From contig JABJHO010000020.1 in the NCBI GenBank assembly GCA_018661775.1, positions 1 through 37,935 on the forward strand: a DNA stretch of 37,935 bases, given 5' to 3'. Position 1 is the first letter of the stretch. The number at the start of each line of letters is the position of its first letter. A program made the translations under genes and the position numbers. The notes under the pieces were generated by a model. The model searched no databases. It saw nothing but the letters and a program-made list of their open reading frames with translations, and was not told the DNA's origin. Source of the stretch: Candidatus Magasanikiibacteriota bacterium (GTDB lineage Bacteria; Patescibacteriota; Patescibacteriia; Magasanikbacterales; UBA922). This document shows positions 3,421 to 36,418 of the stretch, piece by piece.

Positions 3421-3987
3421 ATGAGTACAACATATTTCACACAAATTATAGACTTTTACAAAGCACAAAAACGCATGCCAACATACACCGAAATCATGAA
3501 GATCACTGGACTTAAGTCAAAAGGTGCGGTGGCATACGTGGTCAATCGTTGTGTAGAAGAAGGGATATTGTCCAAAGATAGCACAGGGAAACTGATTCCA
3601 GAAAAAATCACTTCTGGTGTGCCAATGTTAGGAAGTGTTGTTGCTGGATTTCCGACCACAGAAGAGCAAGAGGTTTCAGAAGCTATAACATTAGACGAGA
3701 TGCTAATTACAAAAAAAGATGATACTTTTTTGTTGCGAGTAAAAGGAGATTCTATGAAAGGAGAGGGGATTAAGGGTGGTGATTTGGTTCTTGTAGAAAA
3801 AACAAATAATATTGCCCCGGGCGACATTGTGGTGGCTTCGGTTGATGGAGAATGGACGGTAAAGTTTTTGCGCAAGAACAAAGGTGTTGTGTATCTTGAA
3901 GCAGCAAATCCGGCATATCCTCCAATATATCCAGACCAAGAGCTTCATATTACACTAGTGGTAAAAGCGGTAATTCGCCAGTACTAA
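3421..3987 (+). CDS. lexA: LexA repressor
   Basis: N-terminal wHTH-like region; cleavage-site context VVAGFPT (Ala-Gly); catalytic Ser in GDSMKGEGI and Lys in WTVKFL. Confidence 0.93.
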   Translation: MSTTYFTQIIDFYKAQKRMPTYTEIMKITGLKSKGAVAYVVNRCVEEGILSKDSTGKLIPEKITSGVPMLGSVVAGFPTTEEQEVSEAITLDEMLITKKDDTFLLRVKGDSMKGEGIKGGDLVLVEKTNNIAPGDIVVASVDGEWTVKFLRKNKGVVYLEAANPAYPPIYPDQELHITLVVKAVIRQY

Positions 3988-4124
3988 TAGAGATTTTTGT
4001 TTTTATGGGAAGCGTTACTATGTTTCTGTATATTGTCTGTACAACGATATACAGTCTTGACAAATGTCTTATTTTGTGATAAGGTAAAAAAGCCTATATT
4101 AACACACACAAAAGGAGAAGTGAT

Positions 4125-4496
4125 ATGGCTGTTCATTTTCATCATGAAAAAATTCCTTCAACTCACGGTTCTGTTACAGAAGCAGCAAAACATTTGGTCA
4201 AATTCATGTTGTGCTTGCCATTGGTGAAGCGACTAAGTCTTGGTACAATGGGGAGAACAAAAAAATCCTCCAACGCAGGAAGGAGGGCAAAATTTGTCTC
4301 TATGAAATATAATACATGTGGCTTTAGAATTGTGTTTCTCAGTAGTCAATCAAAACAAGAGTTCTTTGTCCACTGTACCGACCCAAAAGATATTTCAAAA
4401 GTACAGAAGCAGCTTATGGATAATTTTGTTCCACACAAAAAGCGGGGTATTCAGTTTTCTGGGGATGAGTTTTGTTGTGAAGAGGTATTTGCATGA
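4125..4496 (+). CDS. Hypothetical protein
   Basis: ORF of 123 aa with upstream AAAGGAG; followed by an intrinsic terminator. Confidence 0.6.
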   Translation: MAVHFHHEKIPSTHGSVTEAAKHLVKFMLCLPLVKRLSLGTMGRTKKSSNAGRRAKFVSMKYNTCGFRIVFLSSQSKQEFFVHCTDPKDISKVQKQLMDNFVPHKKRGIQFSGDEFCCEEVFA

Positions 4497-6146: not shown

Positions 6147-6352
6147 ATAGTGCTAAATTAAATAAATATGCGTATATATATTGTATAGCGAATTCCACAA
6201 AAATGAAAGAGTATAAGGGTTTCCCAGAAGACATGCGCCAAAACCTTTACAAAACAATAGCTTTTTGATAGAATATGCGCTACCAATCCACTGCAATATT
6301 TGTGTTGTGTGGTAAAGGTATTTTTTTCGCTCTTTAAAAGGAGGACGCTATA

Positions 6353-6655
6353 ATGCCCCAAAATCTTTCTGTTGTAATGAATATTTTTGTAATACTATTT
6401 GTCATATTACTATTGACTTCGTGTTTTTTTGTTAGAAGGGGGGCTAAAAACAAAAGGATAGAATTTATTAATTCTTGTTTATTTATTATCCTGAGCTTTG
6501 GTTTATTTTTACTTACACAACTACTAGCAGTTAATGTTGGCGGTTTTTCAGGTGGGTTTTTACATATTTTTGGATTTGCTGCTTTCGGTGTTCTGGTTTT
6601 AGGTGAGTTGCTGAACTCAAAACTGTCTAATGAGGGGATTTCTTTTAAAGGTTGA
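6353..6655 (+). CDS. Small multi-pass membrane protein, paralogue of 9440-9757
   Basis: AAAAGGAGG upstream; hydrophobic segments; VNVGGFSGGFLHIFG motif shared with 9440-9757. Confidence 0.65.
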   Translation: MPQNLSVVMNIFVILFVILLLTSCFFVRRGAKNKRIEFINSCLFIILSFGLFLLTQLLAVNVGGFSGGFLHIFGFAAFGVLVLGELLNSKLSNEGISFKG

Positions 6656-6729
6656 CTTTTTTCTTATTTCTGATAGGCTAGAGATGTTCGATTTTTCTTT
6701 TTTACATGTTACACCAAAGGAGGTGTTTA

Positions 6730-7047
6730 ATGACAGATGAACAAATTCCCTCGGCCCTGCAATCGGAACCACAAAAATGCGCCCTTGCTTCTCTTGATGA
6801 GATGATCAAACGCATGGAAAGGTATCATTTCTTGGATGATGAGATTTCTGTGTTCATGCCGTTTTTGGAGGAGTACGCTGAGGGTGTACTTGAACAAGTC
6901 TGTTCTTTTTTTATTCTCATTGAGCAGTGTGTACGGTTTTGCAAAGAAAAGATAATAGATTCCAAAATCTGTTTTCAACATGTATTGGCCTGCATATTTG
7001 CCACAGAAGAGGATAAAGTACTGTTCCAAGAGTGTTTGGAAGGGTAG
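6730..7047 (+). CDS. Hypothetical protein
   Basis: AAAGGAGG followed by ATG at 6730 (MTDEQIPSALQ...); terminator follows. Confidence 0.6.
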   Translation: MTDEQIPSALQSEPQKCALASLDEMIKRMERYHFLDDEISVFMPFLEEYAEGVLEQVCSFFILIEQCVRFCKEKIIDSKICFQHVLACIFATEEDKVLFQECLEG

Positions 7048-9439: not shown

Positions 9440-9757
9440 ATGTTATCATCTCTTTTGTCTGCGTCGATTAATACTTTGGCTATTTCTTTTTTACTCCTGC
9501 TTGCGTGCTACACGTTCTTGACACAAAGTAAGTCTAAGAATGTTGAGATAGTGTTTGTTTCCCGGTGTCTATTTGCGGTCTTCACAATAAGCACTTTAGC
9601 GCTTATTCAATTTATAGCACTTGATGTTGGTGGCATGCCTGGCGGCATTCTCCATGTATATGGGGTGGTAGTCCCGGCGATTATGGTTAGAAACGACCTA
9701 AAGAGAAATCTGCCGCAGCATGAAAAGGTGGCGGATACTGGACCTACTATCCCTTAA
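9440..9757 (+). CDS. Small multi-pass membrane protein, paralogue of 6353-6655
   Basis: GGAGG 5' of ATG at 9440; promoter-like TTGACA at 9344 argues against the longer ORF start; LDVGGMPGGILHVYG matches VNVGGFSGGFLHIFG. Confidence 0.65.
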   Translation: MLSSLLSASINTLAISFLLLLACYTFLTQSKSKNVEIVFVSRCLFAVFTISTLALIQFIALDVGGMPGGILHVYGVVVPAIMVRNDLKRNLPQHEKVADTGPTIP

Positions 9758-9778
9758 GTTTTTTGATGTAAAAACCAG

Positions 9779-10054
9779 CTATACGCTGGTTCTTTTATTA
9801 TGCTCTTTTACTACTTCGACTACAATCAGCTGGTAGATTTTTGTAATAAGACTTGGGTTTAGTGTTAATTTTTTTGCTTTTACTTCAAGGCCTTCTAATT
9901 GCACCCCCTCTCTTTTGGTATCTTTTGGTGGAAGACGGTGCACATGCTTCAGCTCACCAATTTTTCTGGTGAGAGAAAATCTTTTTGCGAGTAAAGAGAG
10001 TATTTCTGTATTTATGTTATCTATTTCTTTGCGCAATGTGTGTAATTCTTTCAT
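9779..10054 (-). CDS. Chorismate mutase type II-like domain protein
   Basis: LRKEIDNINTEILSLLAKRFSLTRKIGELKH is characteristic of the AroQ-type helical fold. Confidence 0.75.
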   Translation of the reverse strand: MKELHTLRKEIDNINTEILSLLAKRFSLTRKIGELKHVHRLPPKDTKREGVQLEGLEVKAKKLTLNPSLITKIYQLIVVEVVKEHNKRTSV

Positions 10055-10068
10055 ATACTTTTTGGGAA

Positions 10069-11712
10069 TTACAATGTCTCTCCAATTTTTTTATCTTTCA
10101 TTTTATCTCGAAGTCCGGCAAATTTGGTATCATGCCAAAACATAAGACAGCCGTTACACCCTTTTCCACAACAGGCGTCGGTGCCAAATTTTGGTTTTTT
10201 TGTTTTGGGAGAATTGTCGGATTCTGGCATCTCTTTTTTTTCTTTTTTGCAACACACATCAGTTTTTTTAGATTTGTCACAGGGAGATTCGCTGGTGCCG
10301 CAACACGATCCTTGTGCTTCTACCGAAAAACTGTGCATATCTCTTTTTAGTCTTTCTGGATCCGCAATAATACTTTTTTCTTTTCGTGCAACCGTATGTT
10401 GTGGTAATAATTCTTTTATGTTTTTTCCTTCAAGCCCAAGAAAAATACTTGCTGGAAGTCGAATAGCCTTGTTTTGTCCTGCCGAAACTGCGTCGGTAAT
10501 TTCTCCGGTTTCTGCGTCAATGCATTCTGTGATTCGGAGGCGAATTGGTTCCCACATGGCAGGGGAGAGGATTTCTATTAAATCTCCGGAGTCAATTCTA
10601 TTTTTTACTTCAAAAATAATATCATCACCATCCCATTCTCGTATGTATCCTGCGTTTTCATATTGTGCTACAGATTTTGCACTATCATAATTATGTGCCA
10701 AGTTGGTAAGTCTATTATTATGGAATGCCAAACTATAGCCACGATTTTGTAGTGTATAGAGTTCTTCTAAAAATGGTTCGTGATCCCAGTTTTCTGGGTC
10801 TTCCACCCACGCATCTATGGCATGTCTGTACGATCGTGCAACGAGCGCAGCATAATAATTTGTTTTATTTCTTCCTTCCACTTTTAAACTATCTATACCA
10901 AGTTCAAGATATTCATTGAGTTTTGGCATAAGACACAAGTCTTTTGCATTTAAAATATAGGCACCACGTTCTGTTTCTTGAATTGGCATAAATTCTCCTG
11001 GTCGAAATCCTTCTTCTAAGAAAAACTCAAACAAGTCTTTATTTTCATCTGTCAGTTGAATTTCTTTGAGTGTACCATCTTTTAATTGCACATGCATTTT
11101 GTATTTCCATCGACAACTTTGTGAACAATTACCTTGGTTTGCGCCACGCTCGGACAAAAAGTTAGAAAGTAAACATCTTCCAGAATATGTCATACACATG
11201 GCACCATGAATAAATGTTTCAAGTTTTGTGTCTGGGCATTTTTCTTTAATTTCTGCGAGCTCTTCAAAACTGACTTCTCGTGCAAGTACCACCAGTTTTG
11301 CTCCCTGCTCTTTCCAGTAGTCCACTGTTAGGTGGCTACAGACATTGGCTTGTGTAGAAATATGCAGTTCCAAGTCTGGTGCATGCTTTTTTACAAAAGA
11401 AAACACACCTGGATCAGCTATAATTACTCCATCTGGCCGCACATCTTTTATGGTGTCTACCAGAGTCTTGAGTTTTGGAATGTCTTTGTTGTGGCTAAAC
11501 AAATTAAGGGTTAAATACACTTTTTTGCCTTTTTTGTGCGCATATTCTATGCCTTCCACCAATTCTTCGAGGGTAAATTGTGCTTTTGTTCGTAAAGATA
11601 GGTCTGGGGTACCACAATATACCGCGTCGGCACCATAAAGAATCGCTGTTTTCATTTTGTGAAGCGACCCTGCTGGCATAAGCAGTTCCGAACGGAGTAT
11701 TGGTTTTGGCAT
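10069..11712 (-). CDS. U32 family peptidase (TrhP/YegQ-like) with Cys-rich C-terminus
   Basis: ELLMPAGSLHKMKTAILYGADAVYCG, THGAMCMTYSGRCLLSN-type block (FIHGAMCMTYSGRCLLSNFLSERGANQGNCSQSCRW), SLKVEGR. Confidence 0.9.
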   Translation of the reverse strand: MPKPILRSELLMPAGSLHKMKTAILYGADAVYCGTPDLSLRTKAQFTLEELVEGIEYAHKKGKKVYLTLNLFSHNKDIPKLKTLVDTIKDVRPDGVIIADPGVFSFVKKHAPDLELHISTQANVCSHLTVDYWKEQGAKLVVLAREVSFEELAEIKEKCPDTKLETFIHGAMCMTYSGRCLLSNFLSERGANQGNCSQSCRWKYKMHVQLKDGTLKEIQLTDENKDLFEFFLEEGFRPGEFMPIQETERGAYILNAKDLCLMPKLNEYLELGIDSLKVEGRNKTNYYAALVARSYRHAIDAWVEDPENWDHEPFLEELYTLQNRGYSLAFHNNRLTNLAHNYDSAKSVAQYENAGYIREWDGDDIIFEVKNRIDSGDLIEILSPAMWEPIRLRITECIDAETGEITDAVSAGQNKAIRLPASIFLGLEGKNIKELLPQHTVARKEKSIIADPERLKRDMHSFSVEAQGSCCGTSESPCDKSKKTDVCCKKEKKEMPESDNSPKTKKPKFGTDACCGKGCNGCLMFWHDTKFAGLRDKMKDKKIGETL

Positions 11713-11890: not shown

Positions 11891-13261
11891 ATGCCAAGAA
11901 AAAAAACACGTAAGAAAAGTCGTAACATTGCTCGTGGTAATAATTTTGTTACCGTCTTGTCAATGAATGATGATAGACTTGCCAAAACAATCCGCCAAAT
12001 TATCTCATTCCAAAAAGGGGATTGGGATTTGCTTATGGATGTGCTACAGAATAGTTTTGTGTATAGGGTGGAGCGTATTTCAAAAGGAATTGGAAAGCCA
12101 CCGCGCATTGTTCATGCACCGAACGGATTGCTCAAAAAAGTGCAAAGGAAAATACTTAATCGTTTTCTGTCTGAGATTCCCACCCATTCAGCTAGGCATG
12201 GTGGGGGACAGAAAGGGACGAGTAATAAAACTAACGCACTTGAGCATCAGGATAACGCTTATGCGTTTAGTACTGATATCATGAATGCATTTCCATCGAT
12301 CTTACGCAGTCGTGTGAGAGCATGTCTGAAGCCACACTTAAAACGTGTGTTATATCAATTTCGTCCTCTTGTTTTTGAGTTTGAGGAAAAAAGAGACCCT
12401 CGAGAAAAGCCAACATGTGACGGAGACATTGTCCTTGAAGGTCTGATAGACCTTTTGGTGTTTGATGATCGATTACCGCAAGGACCACCTTCATCACCTC
12501 GTTTGCTCGATATTGTGTCTTACAAAATGGATTGTGATTTGTGGCGATTGGCACAAGAGAGCTCTAATTTGGGTGATGAGTATGTGTATACTGCATATGT
12601 TGATGACTTATCGTTTTCGAGTGCGGTTCCAATTCCTGAAGAGGTTCAGCAAAAAATGCTAACCATTGTGAGAGATAATGGTTTTCACCCGCATCATAGT
12701 CCTGAAAAGACGAAATATCATGGCCCAGACACAGGATCTCATCCTGTAATTACCGGTATTTTGATTCGAGATGGTATGATGCATCTTCCGACACGTAAAC
12801 AGAATCAGCTTCGTGCTCGGCTTCATAACCTGAACGTGGCAAAAGAGGCATGGAGCGATAATGAGAGAGGTGAGGCGGCTGGATTGCTCGGATTTATTCG
12901 TCAGATATATCCACTCGATAGTCATCGTAAGCTGCCAAGCAAGCTGAAGGATCAGGTGCTTTTTTCTGAAAACCGATTGCAGCAACGCAAGGTTGTGGTA
13001 TCAGAAACTCCTTTTGGAATTCCGGTCGCAGAAGAAGATGTGATTACTAAGGTTTGTCAGAATAATCCATCAATTAGTGACTTCAACGCTTTGGCAGTGT
13101 CTACCAGGGTTGGTTGGACGTCTCATTCGGGTATTCCATTTACAGGAACTATTACAGAAAGGTTTCCTGATAAGCCGCATCTAGCGCAAGTTACGTACTT
13201 GAGTAAGGGCGGAAAGAGGTGTGGCACAAGATTGAAGTGTCAGAGGCTTGCTGTTTTATAA
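11891..13261 (+). CDS. Retron-type reverse transcriptase
   Basis: KPPRIVHAPNGLLKKVQRKIL, TNALEHQ (retron NAxxH), FSTDIMNAFPSI, LPQGPPSSPRL, YTAYVDDLSFSS (YVDD), HPVITGILI (VTG-like), TRKQNQLRARLHNL. Confidence 0.88.
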   Translation: MPRKKTRKKSRNIARGNNFVTVLSMNDDRLAKTIRQIISFQKGDWDLLMDVLQNSFVYRVERISKGIGKPPRIVHAPNGLLKKVQRKILNRFLSEIPTHSARHGGGQKGTSNKTNALEHQDNAYAFSTDIMNAFPSILRSRVRACLKPHLKRVLYQFRPLVFEFEEKRDPREKPTCDGDIVLEGLIDLLVFDDRLPQGPPSSPRLLDIVSYKMDCDLWRLAQESSNLGDEYVYTAYVDDLSFSSAVPIPEEVQQKMLTIVRDNGFHPHHSPEKTKYHGPDTGSHPVITGILIRDGMMHLPTRKQNQLRARLHNLNVAKEAWSDNERGEAAGLLGFIRQIYPLDSHRKLPSKLKDQVLFSENRLQQRKVVVSETPFGIPVAEEDVITKVCQNNPSISDFNALAVSTRVGWTSHSGIPFTGTITERFPDKPHLAQVTYLSKGGKRCGTRLKCQRLAVL

Positions 13262-13269
13262 TTTTTTAC

Positions 13270-13294
13270 GGATACATTGGTTGGGGGTGTATCC
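13270..13294 (+). other. Hairpin between the RT stop codon and unit 1
   Basis: GGATACA-ttggttgggg-gTGTATCC inverted repeat; occupies the place where the 3' hairpin precedes units 2-4. Confidence 0.6.
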
Positions 13295-13298
13295 TTCT

Positions 13299-13627
13299 CT
13301 ATTATTCCATCATAGAAGTATATGGTTGAGTAATAGGGAACTTCGGTTTTCTAACGTCTTTACTTGCTCGACCATTGCGACGTATGGTTTTTACCACTAC
13401 TAAGTAATACTCGTTTATAGCTGTCTTGTAACAAGATTAGTGAGAGTATGGTCACGTATGGAATGCTTGTGCTTCGGTGCGGTGCACGTTCTCACCCAAG
13501 GTATTATATAATATTATATAATATTATCTTGGGACAATATTATATAATATTATATAACACCTGACTCCGCGCTTCTAACGAAGTAAAGACACAAGAGGTG
13601 TGCTGGTGCATCACCACACACCTCTCT
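13299..13627 (+). ncRNA. Array unit 1: candidate retron msr-msd ncRNA
   Basis: 5' hairpin CTATTATTCCATCATA..TATATGGTTGAGTAATAG; a1-like GTCTTTACTT (13356-13365); conserved core ending GGAATGCT at 13467; variable insert 13468-13576; a2-like AAGTAAAGAC; 3' hairpin AGAGGTGTGCTGGTGCATCACCACACACCTCT. Confidence 0.75.
13499..13562 (+). other. Insert-1 hairpin (candidate msd)
   Basis: Left arm AGGTATTATATAATATTATATAATATT (13499-13525) and right arm AATATTATATAATATTATATAACACCT (13536-13562) are complementary at 26 of 27 positions with a 10-nt loop. Confidence 0.7.
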
Positions 13628-13960
13628 CTATTATTCCATCATAGCTTTATATGATTGAGTAATAGAGGGTATTGATCACACTCTCTAACGTCTTTACTTG
13701 CTCGACCATTGCGACGTATGGTTTTTATCACTACTAAGTAATACTCGTTTATAGCTGTCTTGTAACAAGATTAGTAAGAGTATGGTCACATATGGAATGC
13801 TAATGCGTAGGAGTTTTTACAATGTTTATTACAATTACAACGCTAAGATACATAAAGTAGCTTATGCAATAGTAATAAAATTGTAAAATACCTCTCCGTG
13901 CTTCATTCCAACGAAGTAAAGACACAAGAGGTGTGCTGGTGCATCACCACACACCTCTCT
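13628..13960 (+). ncRNA. Array unit 2: candidate retron msr-msd ncRNA
   Basis: Same conserved elements as unit 1; variable insert 13802-13909 with TTTTACAATgTTTATTAC / GTAATAAAATTGTAAAA complementarity and a basal GGAATG/CATTCC pairing. Confidence 0.75.
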
Positions 13961-14329
13961 CTATTATTCCACCATAGAAGTATATGGTTGAATAATAGGG
14001 AACTTCGGTGTTCTAACGTCTTTACTTGCTCGACCATTGCGACGTATGGTTTTTTACCACTACTAAGTAATACTCGTTTATAGCTGTCTTGTAACAAGAT
14101 TAGTGAGAGTATGGTCACGTATGGAATGCTAGTGGATATTTTAGGACAAAACCTCCGCGTTGCTTCGGCACAGGGCGAGGAAAAAAGTCAAGATCAGCAA
14201 GCTGATTAGACCTCCGGTCAAACTTTTTACCCCCATTTTGTCCGAAAATATCTCCCGCACCTGAGAAAGGTGCGGCCAAACGAAGTAAAGACACAAGAGG
14301 TGTGCTGGTGTATCACCACACACCTCTCT
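13961..14329 (+). ncRNA. Array unit 3: candidate retron msr-msd ncRNA
   Basis: Same conserved elements; variable insert 14131-14278 with GGATATTTTaGGACAAAA / TTTTGTCCgAAAATATCTCC complementarity and inner hairpins. Confidence 0.75.
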
Positions 14330-14372
14330 CTATTATTCCATCATAACGGCATATGGTTGAGTAATAGGGAAC
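14330..14372 (+). repeat. Partial fourth unit (5' hairpin only)
   Basis: CTATTATTCCATCATAacggcaTATGGTTGAGTAATAGGGAAC; matches the first ~45 nt of the units, then diverges just before the MoxR gene. Confidence 0.8.
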
Positions 14373-14424
14373 CATGGCCGGTTTTCTTTTTACAATACAC
14401 AATGCAATAAAAAAGGAGCATGCT

Positions 14425-15537
14425 ATGGCCGATTTACTTCGTATTACTGCAAAGAATCATCCCGCTGGGAAGGGTATTGTTTGGGAGTCTACGGATAGCC
14501 AGTTTCTCAAAACCAAGATTAAGCTTGATACCCAGCCAACAGAAGAAATATGTGAAGGTGATGTGTGGCAGGTGCAGTTTTTAGACAAAACTGACTCAAA
14601 ACCATCAAGTCCTAGTGTTGTTACGTTTAGGCTGGTTGCTAAAGTGCGAGAACTAAAAACTTGGCAAAAAATTACAACACTTGAAGATTTTTGGACCGAC
14701 CCTGATGACTTGCAAGATATTCTTTGCTGGGTTAACGAGGGTCAGGACATTATTTTAATAGGGGAGGCTGGTTCAGGTAAAACCACACTGCCATTTGCAC
14801 TCGCTAGAGCTTTGGGTTGGCAAGAGCCATATAAGGTTGATGTCGCCATGATGAAGAAAGCTCAAGATTTTTTTGGAAAAGGTGGTGCGGCTGATGGAAA
14901 GGCGTTTTTTGCTGAGTCACCGATGATGCAATATATTCGACGTGCACAGATTGCATATGACAACGGTATCGAGAGTCACTTTGTTATTATCCTTGATGAA
15001 CTGAACCGTGTGCATGCGCATACCGGGGATGGCCTCCATGGATTGTTTGATGACACAAGACAAATTAGTATTCCAACATCAGAAGGGGGTTTGGTCATAA
15101 AGCTACCTCCCAATATCCATTTTTTTGGCACCATTAATCAGGGTGGTTCATATGTGGGGACGTTTCAAATGGACCAGGCACTAAAGAGTCGTTTTGCGCC
15201 TATATATGTGCCAGCTATGCCTCGCGATGTGGAGGTCAGAAAACTCACAAAAGAGGTGGGTGTTACAGAAAAGGAGGCTGGTCATATAGTGGACACCGCA
15301 AGAAAGTTGCGTGAAGCATGTGGCGCTGGTCAGCTTGAATTTGCACCTGATTATAGGGTGTGTAGAAGTACGGCATATCTGATTAAAAATGGTAGACCAT
15401 TAAGGCGATCACTTATCAAAGGTCTGTTAGGGTGGTATAATGGGCGTTTTGAGCTTGATCATCGTGGTGAAATTATGGACCCCAATAGTGAGCTTGCAAA
15501 GGCATATTCTGCTATTCGGGCAATTATGGCCAAGTAA
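14425..15537 (+). CDS. MoxR-like AAA+ ATPase
   Basis: ILIGEAGSGKTTLPFALARALG (Walker A), VIILDELNRVH (Walker B), FFGTINQGGSYVGTFQMDQALKSRFAPIYV (sensor 1/Arg finger). Start at 14425 after AAAAGGAG. Confidence 0.88.
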   Translation: MADLLRITAKNHPAGKGIVWESTDSQFLKTKIKLDTQPTEEICEGDVWQVQFLDKTDSKPSSPSVVTFRLVAKVRELKTWQKITTLEDFWTDPDDLQDILCWVNEGQDIILIGEAGSGKTTLPFALARALGWQEPYKVDVAMMKKAQDFFGKGGAADGKAFFAESPMMQYIRRAQIAYDNGIESHFVIILDELNRVHAHTGDGLHGLFDDTRQISIPTSEGGLVIKLPPNIHFFGTINQGGSYVGTFQMDQALKSRFAPIYVPAMPRDVEVRKLTKEVGVTEKEAGHIVDTARKLREACGAGQLEFAPDYRVCRSTAYLIKNGRPLRRSLIKGLLGWYNGRFELDHRGEIMDPNSELAKAYSAIRAIMAK

Positions 15538-15684: not shown

Positions 15685-17385
15685 ATGCGTGCAACGCGCA
15701 AGAAAAATACGAAACCCGCAATTGATCGACAGGTAGAAATACTTAAGCGAGAGATTCCACGACTGCTTAATGATATTCTTATACTTGTTGGAAAACCAGT
15801 AAAACTTATTTTTGACCCGACAATTGATACTGCAGCCACTGATTGTGTGGCTGAGGTTCGTATGGGGCCTTGGTTTTTTTTAGAAGAAGGGTACCGTATG
15901 GTTGGTTTTGGTACCGCGTACCATGAGTGTGGTCATATCCGGCATTCGCCTTATGGTGTTGACTTACTACAACGTGCACACAAACAAGGTGGGCCAGTTC
16001 GTCAACAGCTTATGAATATTGTTCTTGATAGAAAAGACGATATGCTTACAGCGCAAGATGCACCTGGGTTTGCGCCGGTATTGCGAGATCGATTACAGTA
16101 TATTTGTACCCTTGGCATGAAGGAGCGTTACAAAAAAGAACTAAAAGGGTTGACTCACAAAGAGTCTATCCCATTCTTACGTAAGGTTGTGCCGGAAGAC
16201 ATATACGAAGATTTTTTTATGGTGGCCAAATGGCATAGACGACCAAAAATTCGACGAACCTTTCGGGCAAAAAAATACATGACACGTCGCCAACTCTTGT
16301 CGGCTTCTCCAGATCGACTCTGTTGGCTTGTAGAACAAATCCACAGAGTACTAGGAGATGTTCCGCATGACGGTGAGTGTGGGTCCTATGAATGGAGACC
16401 GTCAGATGATGGGGGTGTAGAAAAAGCTTTTGCACAGATGGCATATATTGCTGCGTGTCAACAAGCGCGGTTTGGTGACCCAGAACACGGTGAAACAGAT
16501 GTGGAGATCCACAATGAGATAGAAAAAATTATCCAAAATAATTTATCACAAGGTCGAGCAGGTTCTTTGCAGCAGTTAGAAAAGTTTCTTAAAACTTGGG
16601 GTATTACACATCCTGGCACACTATCTGTTGGGGAAGTTGATGAGGTCGAGATAAGAAAAATAAAACAACATGCCAAATATACGCAAGAATATCTCACGTT
16701 GCTTGGCCCGGTTCGACATCTTGTTGATCCACTCAAAAAGAGATTGCGATTACTTGATTCTCCAAAGTCTTTTACACTCTACGGTCAGGACGAGGGGGAT
16801 GAAATTGATGATGATGAGGTGGCAAATATTGCACTAAATATTGGTGGTTACTTTATGACCGAGGTTGATGTGCGAGATATTAATGCCGAGATTCATTTGG
16901 CAATTGATTGTAGTGGTTCTATGTCTGGAGAAAAGGTAAAAACTGCCAAGCAGATTGCGATCTTATTTTCTGAAGCCATTCAAACATTTAATACAGCAGA
17001 CTGTGTTGGTAGTGTTTGGGGATACAGTTCAGAAGCGATCTATGATTTTGGCGAAGTGTCGCAATCGTCAGGACTTGTAACACTCGAAGGTGAAGCGGGG
17101 AATTCAGACACCCACCTGCTTCGTCATGTAGGTGCGTGTTTGGCTCGTTCTACCAAGCGCCGCAAGATTTTGTTTGTTCTATGTGATGATGGTCCAGACT
17201 GTATTACAGGGGTGCAGAGAATTTCAAACCAACTCCTTTCTCGTGGCATACTAGTTATTCATCTGCTTGTTGGTGTGCACGCCGCACCAAAGATGTATCC
17301 TATTGAATTGCTTTTTTTAAAAATGGAAGACTGTTTGAAAGAGTTAGGAGATGTCTTAGAAACAGTGCTCAAGCACATGAAGTAG
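15685..17385 (+). CDS. VWA-domain protein with N-terminal HExxH metallopeptidase-like region
   Basis: YHECGHIRHS (HExxH); HLAIDCSGSMSGEKVK (MIDAS DxSxS); immediately downstream of the MoxR ATPase. Start chosen at 15685 after AAGAAAGG. Confidence 0.85.
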   Translation: MRATRKKNTKPAIDRQVEILKREIPRLLNDILILVGKPVKLIFDPTIDTAATDCVAEVRMGPWFFLEEGYRMVGFGTAYHECGHIRHSPYGVDLLQRAHKQGGPVRQQLMNIVLDRKDDMLTAQDAPGFAPVLRDRLQYICTLGMKERYKKELKGLTHKESIPFLRKVVPEDIYEDFFMVAKWHRRPKIRRTFRAKKYMTRRQLLSASPDRLCWLVEQIHRVLGDVPHDGECGSYEWRPSDDGGVEKAFAQMAYIAACQQARFGDPEHGETDVEIHNEIEKIIQNNLSQGRAGSLQQLEKFLKTWGITHPGTLSVGEVDEVEIRKIKQHAKYTQEYLTLLGPVRHLVDPLKKRLRLLDSPKSFTLYGQDEGDEIDDDEVANIALNIGGYFMTEVDVRDINAEIHLAIDCSGSMSGEKVKTAKQIAILFSEAIQTFNTADCVGSVWGYSSEAIYDFGEVSQSSGLVTLEGEAGNSDTHLLRHVGACLARSTKRRKILFVLCDDGPDCITGVQRISNQLLSRGILVIHLLVGVHAAPKMYPIELLFLKMEDCLKELGDVLETVLKHMK

Positions 17386-35866: not shown

Positions 35867-36418
35867 ATGCTAAGAATTCGACTCCAAAGAATTGGAAAGA
35901 AAAAACAACCGGTATACCGGTTTATTGTGTCTGAAAAAACAAAAGACACGCAAGCTGGAAGCCTAGAAATTCTAGGACAATATAATCCAGTATTAAAAGA
36001 AAAGTTAATCAACATGAATGCAGAACGCATTAAGCATTGGATTTCTGTGGGTGCACAACCTTCTGCAACGGTCAATAACATTCTTATAAACGCAGGAATT
36101 ATTGAAGGAAAAAAGCAAAAGTCTGTAACCATTACCAATAAGCGAAAAGCGAAACTAGACAAGAAGAAAGAGGAAGTAGAAGAAAAGAAAAAAGCAGCAA
36201 AGGAAGCAAAAGAAGCTGAAGCAGTGGCAAAAAAAGAAGCTGAAGCAGTGGCAAAAAAAGAAGCTGAAGCAGTGGCAAAAAAAGAAGCCGAAGAAGCAAA
36301 AGCAGCTGAGATAGCCAAAGCCGAAGAAGCAAAAGCAGAAAAGAAAGAGGAAGTTAAAGAAGAGAAAGTAGAAGAAGAAAAAACAGAAGAACCAAAAGAA
36401 GAAAAGAAAGAATCTTAA
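35867..36418 (+). CDS. rpsP: 30S ribosomal protein S16 with low-complexity C-terminal extension
   Basis: MLRIRLQRIGKKKQPVYRFIVSEKTKDTQAGSLEILGQYNP...WISVGAQPSATVNNIL; then A/K/E-rich tail. Confidence 0.95.
   Translation: MLRIRLQRIGKKKQPVYRFIVSEKTKDTQAGSLEILGQYNPVLKEKLINMNAERIKHWISVGAQPSATVNNILINAGIIEGKKQKSVTITNKRKAKLDKKKEEVEEKKKAAKEAKEAEAVAKKEAEAVAKKEAEAVAKKEAEEAKAAEIAKAEEAKAEKKEEVKEEKVEEEKTEEPKEEKKES

Follow-up and report, generated by a model that had tools for sequence, protein, structure and literature searches.

A candidate retron type with several clustered template-like RNAs per reverse transcriptase and an adjoining MoxR-VWA gene pair

The window analyzed here, a 37,935-nt stretch of DNA from a Candidatus Magasanikiibacteriota bacterium (assembly GCA_018661775.1, contig JABJHO010000020.1), contains a retron-type reverse transcriptase (RT) gene, a tandem array of three ncRNA units that have the retron order a1-msr-msd-a2, and genes encoding a MoxR-type AAA+ ATPase and a VWA-domain protein. 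We think it probable, at roughly three chances in four, that the locus represents an undescribed retron type, in which one RT recognizes the msr and arms common to several clustered ncRNAs and copies their different msd sequences into DNA. The support at the sequence level is the conserved RT-MoxR-VWA trio, the tandem units, the covarying a1/a2 arms and msr helices, the divergent, folded msd inserts and the retron-type RT. Counting against it are the position of the ncRNAs downstream of the RT gene, an altered catalytic motif in one relative, limited compensatory change in the msd, the lack of an Rfam match and the weak scores of single covariance model matches.

Results

An array of three units between the RT and MoxR genes

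The preliminary description of this DNA had placed three head-to-tail units directly 3' of the RT gene, at 13299-13627, 13628-13960 and 13961-14329, and these are present at exactly those positions, between the RT gene and the MoxR-type ATPase gene. The window units are ~330-370 nt long and every unit is closed by identical 10-nt arms, GTCTTTACTT and AAGTAAAGAC. As had been reported, the two arms are exact reverse complements of each other; they lie at 13356/13581, 13690/13914 and 14018/14283. Comparison of the three window units also bore out the near-invariant cores and the unalignable inserts (13468-13576, 13802-13909 and 14131-14278). The partial fourth unit (14330-14372) fared less well: the sequence is there, but it is the last hairpin A, which lies in the MoxR leader, rather than a unit. 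Paired hairpins, B then A, are found before, between and after the units, the number of B-A pairs being that of the units plus one. The array is present in one copy in the 981-kb genome. The features, all on the + strand, are as follows.

11891..13261, +, RT, 456 aa, with motifs TNALEH (NAxxH), LPQGPPSSP, YVDD and VITG
13270..13294, +, hairpin B0, ahead of unit 1
13297..13342, +, hairpin A1
13356..13590, +, ncRNA unit 1: a1 13356-13365, msr core to ~13467, variable msd ~13468-13580, a2 13581-13590
13407-13454, +, unit 1 core matched by the held-out covariance model
13592..13627, +, hairpin B1
13628..13672, +, hairpin A2
13690..13923, +, ncRNA unit 2: a1 13690-13699, msr core to ~13801, variable msd ~13802-13913, a2 13914-13923
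13741-13788, +, unit 2 core matched by the held-out covariance model
13925..13960, +, hairpin B2
13961..14004, +, hairpin A3
14018..14292, +, ncRNA unit 3: a1 14018-14027, msr core to ~14130, variable msd ~14131-14282, a2 14283-14292
14070-14117, +, unit 3 core matched by the held-out covariance model
14294..14329, +, hairpin B3
14330..14373, +, hairpin A4, terminal hairpin in the MoxR gene leader
14425..15537, +, MoxR-type AAA+ ATPase (AAA_5), Walker A GEAGSGKTT, Walker B VIILDE
15688..17385, +, VWA-domain protein, N-terminal HExxH (YHECGH), MIDAS DCSGS; presumed effector partner of the ATPase

The RT is of the retron type

The assignment of the RT to the retron type held: the NAxxH (TNALEH) and VTG (VITG) motifs are present together with QGxxSSP (LPQGPPSSP) and YVDD (TAYVDDLSFS), and a few relatives deviate from the NAxxH and VTG motifs. 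A profile of the RT matched only retron RTs in the PDB, namely Ec86 (8e-21), Ec67, Kva2, Ec78 and Ec83. The PADLOC retron RT profiles also matched (best 3e-37), as did the NCBIfam retron St85 profile at 2e-38, which falls short of the cut-off of that profile; the cut-offs of the named subfamilies were not reached. In a tree of 36 RTs, which left out group II intron and DRT references and has weak deep forks, the RT grouped with retron-type RTs and apart from those of diversity-generating retroelements (DGRs). The RTs of the present system form one clade (96/96) and the DGR clade is separate (100/98).

The catalytic motifs are kept in nearly all members, the RT of locus L028 having YADN in place of YxDD. 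Unlike other members, the L030 (G198) RT (9631-11184, - strand) has a fused C-terminal RNase H domain (RVT_3, 2e-26), and in L029 (G297) an RNase H gene (11255-11680, - strand) is located just upstream of the RT gene. Known retrons require the RNase H1 of their host (PMC8989520). Predicted structures of the RT and the VWA protein, based on shallow alignments, had pLDDT values of 50 and 39, respectively, and were too poor for use.

The units share covarying arms and an msr core

The order of arm, conserved core, variable hairpin and complementary arm had been read as a1-msr-msd-a2, and this reading is supported by arm covariation, by a common msr structure and by the arrays of relatives. The arms paired in 94.8% of cells versus 59.8% in shuffles, with two-sided change in 8/9 pairs. 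As the second arms in the 94.8% figure had been picked by complementarity, the fair test of the arms is a free search for the partner of a1, in which the 13 nt ahead of the conserved CTTGACC were used and the second arm was not picked beforehand. In 13 of the 18 distinct cases a1 paired better with a segment of its own downstream DNA than with shuffled sequence (p<=0.05). The msr core has one common hairpin plus a GACC/GGTC closing helix across loci, and the hairpin showed two-sided change in 8/14 pairs, with equally good shuffles in 0/500. The units combine two retron hallmarks: an ncRNA beside the RT gene whose a1 and a2 arms are complementary and close it, and a structured msr with a long msd stem between it and a2. 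For the branching guanosine that in retrons adjoins a1 and serves 2'-5' priming, a candidate is a G located 4-5 nt 3' of a1, which is invariant in a nine-unit alignment and is absent from some L030 units.

A covariance model built from seven units of L011, L025, L028 and L029, with the window sequence excluded, matched all three window cores on the correct strand, the matches being singly weak (E 0.1-0.6). Against the 981-kb genome itself at E<=10 the model gave two matches only, both in the array and each weak (E 0.6). Across 381 genomes at E<=0.01 there were 13 matches, all in five RT-carrying genomes. The covariance search suggested in the preliminary description, performed here with a model built from relatives, thus gave significant matches confined to RT carriers. 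The curated covariance models of Rfam had no match to the units. Within L028 (G237; 3873-4226 and 6190-6751) a GTCATCCTTCGA-like repeat lies inside some msr regions and also beside units, a pattern suggestive of a small repeat element having inserted into the msr regions.

Related loci carry arrays

Profile searches found the RT in 11/381 genomes of the bacterial class, which belongs to the candidate phyla radiation (CPR), with the genome of the window counted. RT, MoxR and VWA genes have the same order in all complete loci except that of G605 (L036), where the RT gene has no MoxR gene beside it and adjoins gyrB; this RT is basal (sister) to the whole clade. The close group consists of L011/L026 (Ca. 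Uhrbacteria RIFOXYC2_FULL_47_19), L025/L027 together with L121 (Parcubacteria CG1_02_58_44, split contigs), L028, L029 and L030. The distant group consists of L032-L035, plus L031, which is cut by a contig end. As expected from the preliminary description, the related RT-MoxR-VWA loci carry arrays, with units or repeats between the RT and MoxR genes, between the MoxR and VWA genes, or both; in relatives the ncRNA array continues 3' of the MoxR gene.

Intact units number 27 in the six closest loci, window included: three in the window, six in L011, three in L025 plus L121, five in L028, one in L029 and nine in L030 (24 first listed, one added in L030 and two in L121). L029 has an additional remnant unit that lacks a2. 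In the distant group each locus may have two or three units, as judged by repeats and arm-like pairs in the RT-MoxR gaps; L033 gave no repeat at the length used. Multiplicity of the array recurs in separate genera and families.

For the other retron-type RTs of the class (G123, G112, G136, G194 and G119), no arrays, MoxR or VWA genes were found within the stretches fetched. Loci with other retron-type RTs of the class and without arrays or a MoxR-VWA pair are L012, L013, L091, L093 and L094. A search of genome and viral contigs with the single RT gave no related loci, and a search with an alignment of two RTs gave related loci from genomes only, not from viral contigs. The MoxR gene of Parcubacteria CG1_02_58_44 is divided over two contigs, at the end of L027 and the start of L121, and unrelated DNA, perhaps that of a transposase, opens L121. 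An insertion or a break in the assembly would each account for the split.

The inserts fold and are inherited

Whole window units folded better than their dinucleotide shuffles (z -5.6, -3.9 and -5.0) and so did the window inserts (z -4.7, -5.1 and -5.1). The mean z of insert folding was -4.6. The sister species G125 and G211 have three orthologous units that are 80-91% identical. With the structure of G125 alone as the reference, 21 of their msd pairs were changed and 11 of these were kept, six by two-sided change. Unit 2 is absent from G211, and the duplicated units 4 and 5 and unit 6 of G125 are represented there by a single unit. In L011 units 4 and 5 are tandem duplicates, 99% identical over 300 nt. 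Judged by these alignments, the inserts are inherited, with their shape partly conserved, and units are gained and lost over time, which argues against junk and also against a fast CRISPR-like memory.

A viral origin of the inserts was considered and dropped, as the array had no match in phage records. The msr core and a 21-mer of insert 2 had no exact match in viral sequences, and seven 16-base viral matches of insert 3 were judged to fit chance. A search of the genome itself for second copies of the inserts found none. Hence, neither phage and viral records nor the genome itself gave a source for the inserts.

A MoxR-VWA pair follows the array

The two genes after the array encode a MoxR-type AAA+ ATPase and then a VWA protein. 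The ATPase has an AAA_5 domain and its closest structures are midasin, NorQ and CobS. The VWA protein has a MIDAS motif, weak similarity to CobT and NorD, and an invariant HExxH (protease-type) motif near the N-terminus. The two genes have the layout of a MoxR-VWA pair, with an AAA+ MoxR ATPase adjoining a MIDAS-bearing VWA protein, and such pairs remodel target proteins (PMC9976466, PMC13036017). We infer that the pair functions as an effector module beside the RT, in a tripartite layout. As the remaining genes of the window resemble housekeeping genes in their ORF translations, the RT-MoxR-VWA trio looks like an inserted cassette. One of these ORFs (35867-36418) probably encodes ribosomal protein S16 and has an extended tail of EAEAVAKK repeats (36208-36412).

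Discussion

Comparison with known systems

Ec86 (Eco1), Ec67 (Eco2), Ec78, Ec83 and Kva2 have in common with the present system a retron-type RT, an a1-msr-msd-a2 ncRNA and an effector gene in the operon. The system differs from them in having several ncRNAs per RT with different msd sequences, located 3' of the RT gene and in relatives also 3' of the ATPase gene, in its MoxR plus VWA-HExxH module, and in the absence of an Rfam RNA family match. The usual retron layout is a single msr-msd upstream of the RT gene (PMC6868368). Here several units are downstream instead, the single upstream ncRNA not being a strict requirement of retrons. Retron-Sen1 (Se72) is described as having a hairpin-containing element that is a possible alternative msr (PMC6868368), although unlike the present loci it has no series of complete units that differ in their msd. 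NorQ/NorD, CobS/CobT and RavA/ViaA likewise pair a MoxR AAA+ ATPase with a VWA partner, and here the pair is distinguished by its linkage to a retron RT and by the invariant HExxH in the N-terminal part of the VWA protein. DGRs of CPR bacteria, found in genomes of this kind, also combine an RT with a non-coding template RNA, and differ in RT clade and motifs and in having a variable-repeat target. In a literature comparison made without the Mestre 2020 retron classification, we found no report linking a retron to VWA or MoxR proteins and none of several ncRNAs per retron RT. Its RT and RNA layout would make the system a retron, with the template array and the effector pair as its new elements.

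Alternative explanations

The most serious alternative is an ordinary single-template retron, in which one unit works and the others are decayed leftovers of tandem duplication. The near-identical units 4 and 5 of L011, the remnant of L029 that lacks a2 and the unit lost from G211 all fit such decay. However, arms and msr structure are intact in nearly all units while the insert changes completely, the inserts fold significantly, orthologous inserts are kept between sister species, and multiplicity recurs across separate genera and families; we therefore regard the single-template explanation as unlikely. Tandem structured RNA repeats beside a presumed effector would also be expected of an RNA scaffold array, the units of which would bind the RT or the MoxR-VWA proteins, or inhibit them, in the manner of type III toxin-antitoxin RNAs with no copying into DNA. 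This seems less probable still, given RT catalytic motifs kept in nearly all members, a unit layout that is that of a retron template, and RNase H fused or adjacent in two loci.

Some defense RTs use neighboring ncRNAs and make unusual cDNA (PMC12039810, PMC12483538), and thus a DRT-like or other non-retron RT system could use these ncRNAs for repeat or semi-random DNA synthesis. The PDB matches were to retron RTs only, with no DRT structure among them, and the a1/a2 closure is retron-like, which leaves this a very improbable explanation. A DGR had to be considered given that RTs with DGR-type motifs made up nearly all of the RVT_1 loci fetched from the class. The DGR RTs of the class have LPLGNLTSQ in place of the LPQGPPSSP found here, the RT falls outside the DGR clade, and there is no variable repeat in the genome itself, as the inserts match nothing else there. 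We consider a DGR refuted by these three findings and give it almost no weight.

Proposed mechanism and implications

The multi-template retron proposed in the preliminary description is the reading that the analysis supports. That one RT copies several templates is inferred, and the msr and arms that a template should have are common to all units. A common transcript would be made, from which the flanking A/B hairpins would release single ncRNAs. The RT would bind the common msr and arms, as their covariation suggests, prime from a G just 3' of a1 and copy the insert, the msd being read from its a2 side, and RNase H would remove the template. Production of msDNA and a role in defense are predictions; by analogy, the system looks like a defense system that makes a set of DNA sensors. 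In Eco8, Ec86 and Ec83, msDNA is a latch or sensor of the effector (PMC13158370). By the same analogy, mixed RT-msDNA complexes would hold the MoxR ATPase/VWA-HExxH module inactive and each msDNA would answer to a different phage trigger. If one msDNA were bound, cut or modified, the module would be released and the infected cell would be harmed or halted.

If several templates are copied, one retron RT would drive them at once, a property useful for multiplexed DNA production, and the MoxR-VWA-HExxH module would join the list of retron effectors. A further step, which we hold to be an even bet, is a combinatorial retron in which units are gained, lost and refitted with new msd sequences and each msDNA is a separate tripwire for one MoxR-VWA effector; phages would then have to evade all of the tripwires at once. 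The way in which the sequence of an msDNA determines what its retron detects is named as an open question (PMC13158370). With up to nine msds for one RT and one effector, the loci form a natural series that separates sensor from effector and makes the question testable unit by unit. A DNA motif common to the msds was sought and rejected, since TGACA/TGTCA was mildly enriched and not significant after correction for all 5-mers. Stems containing TGACA/TGTCA recur in the msds of L011, L025, L028 and L030 and in the gaps of the distant loci L032-L035.
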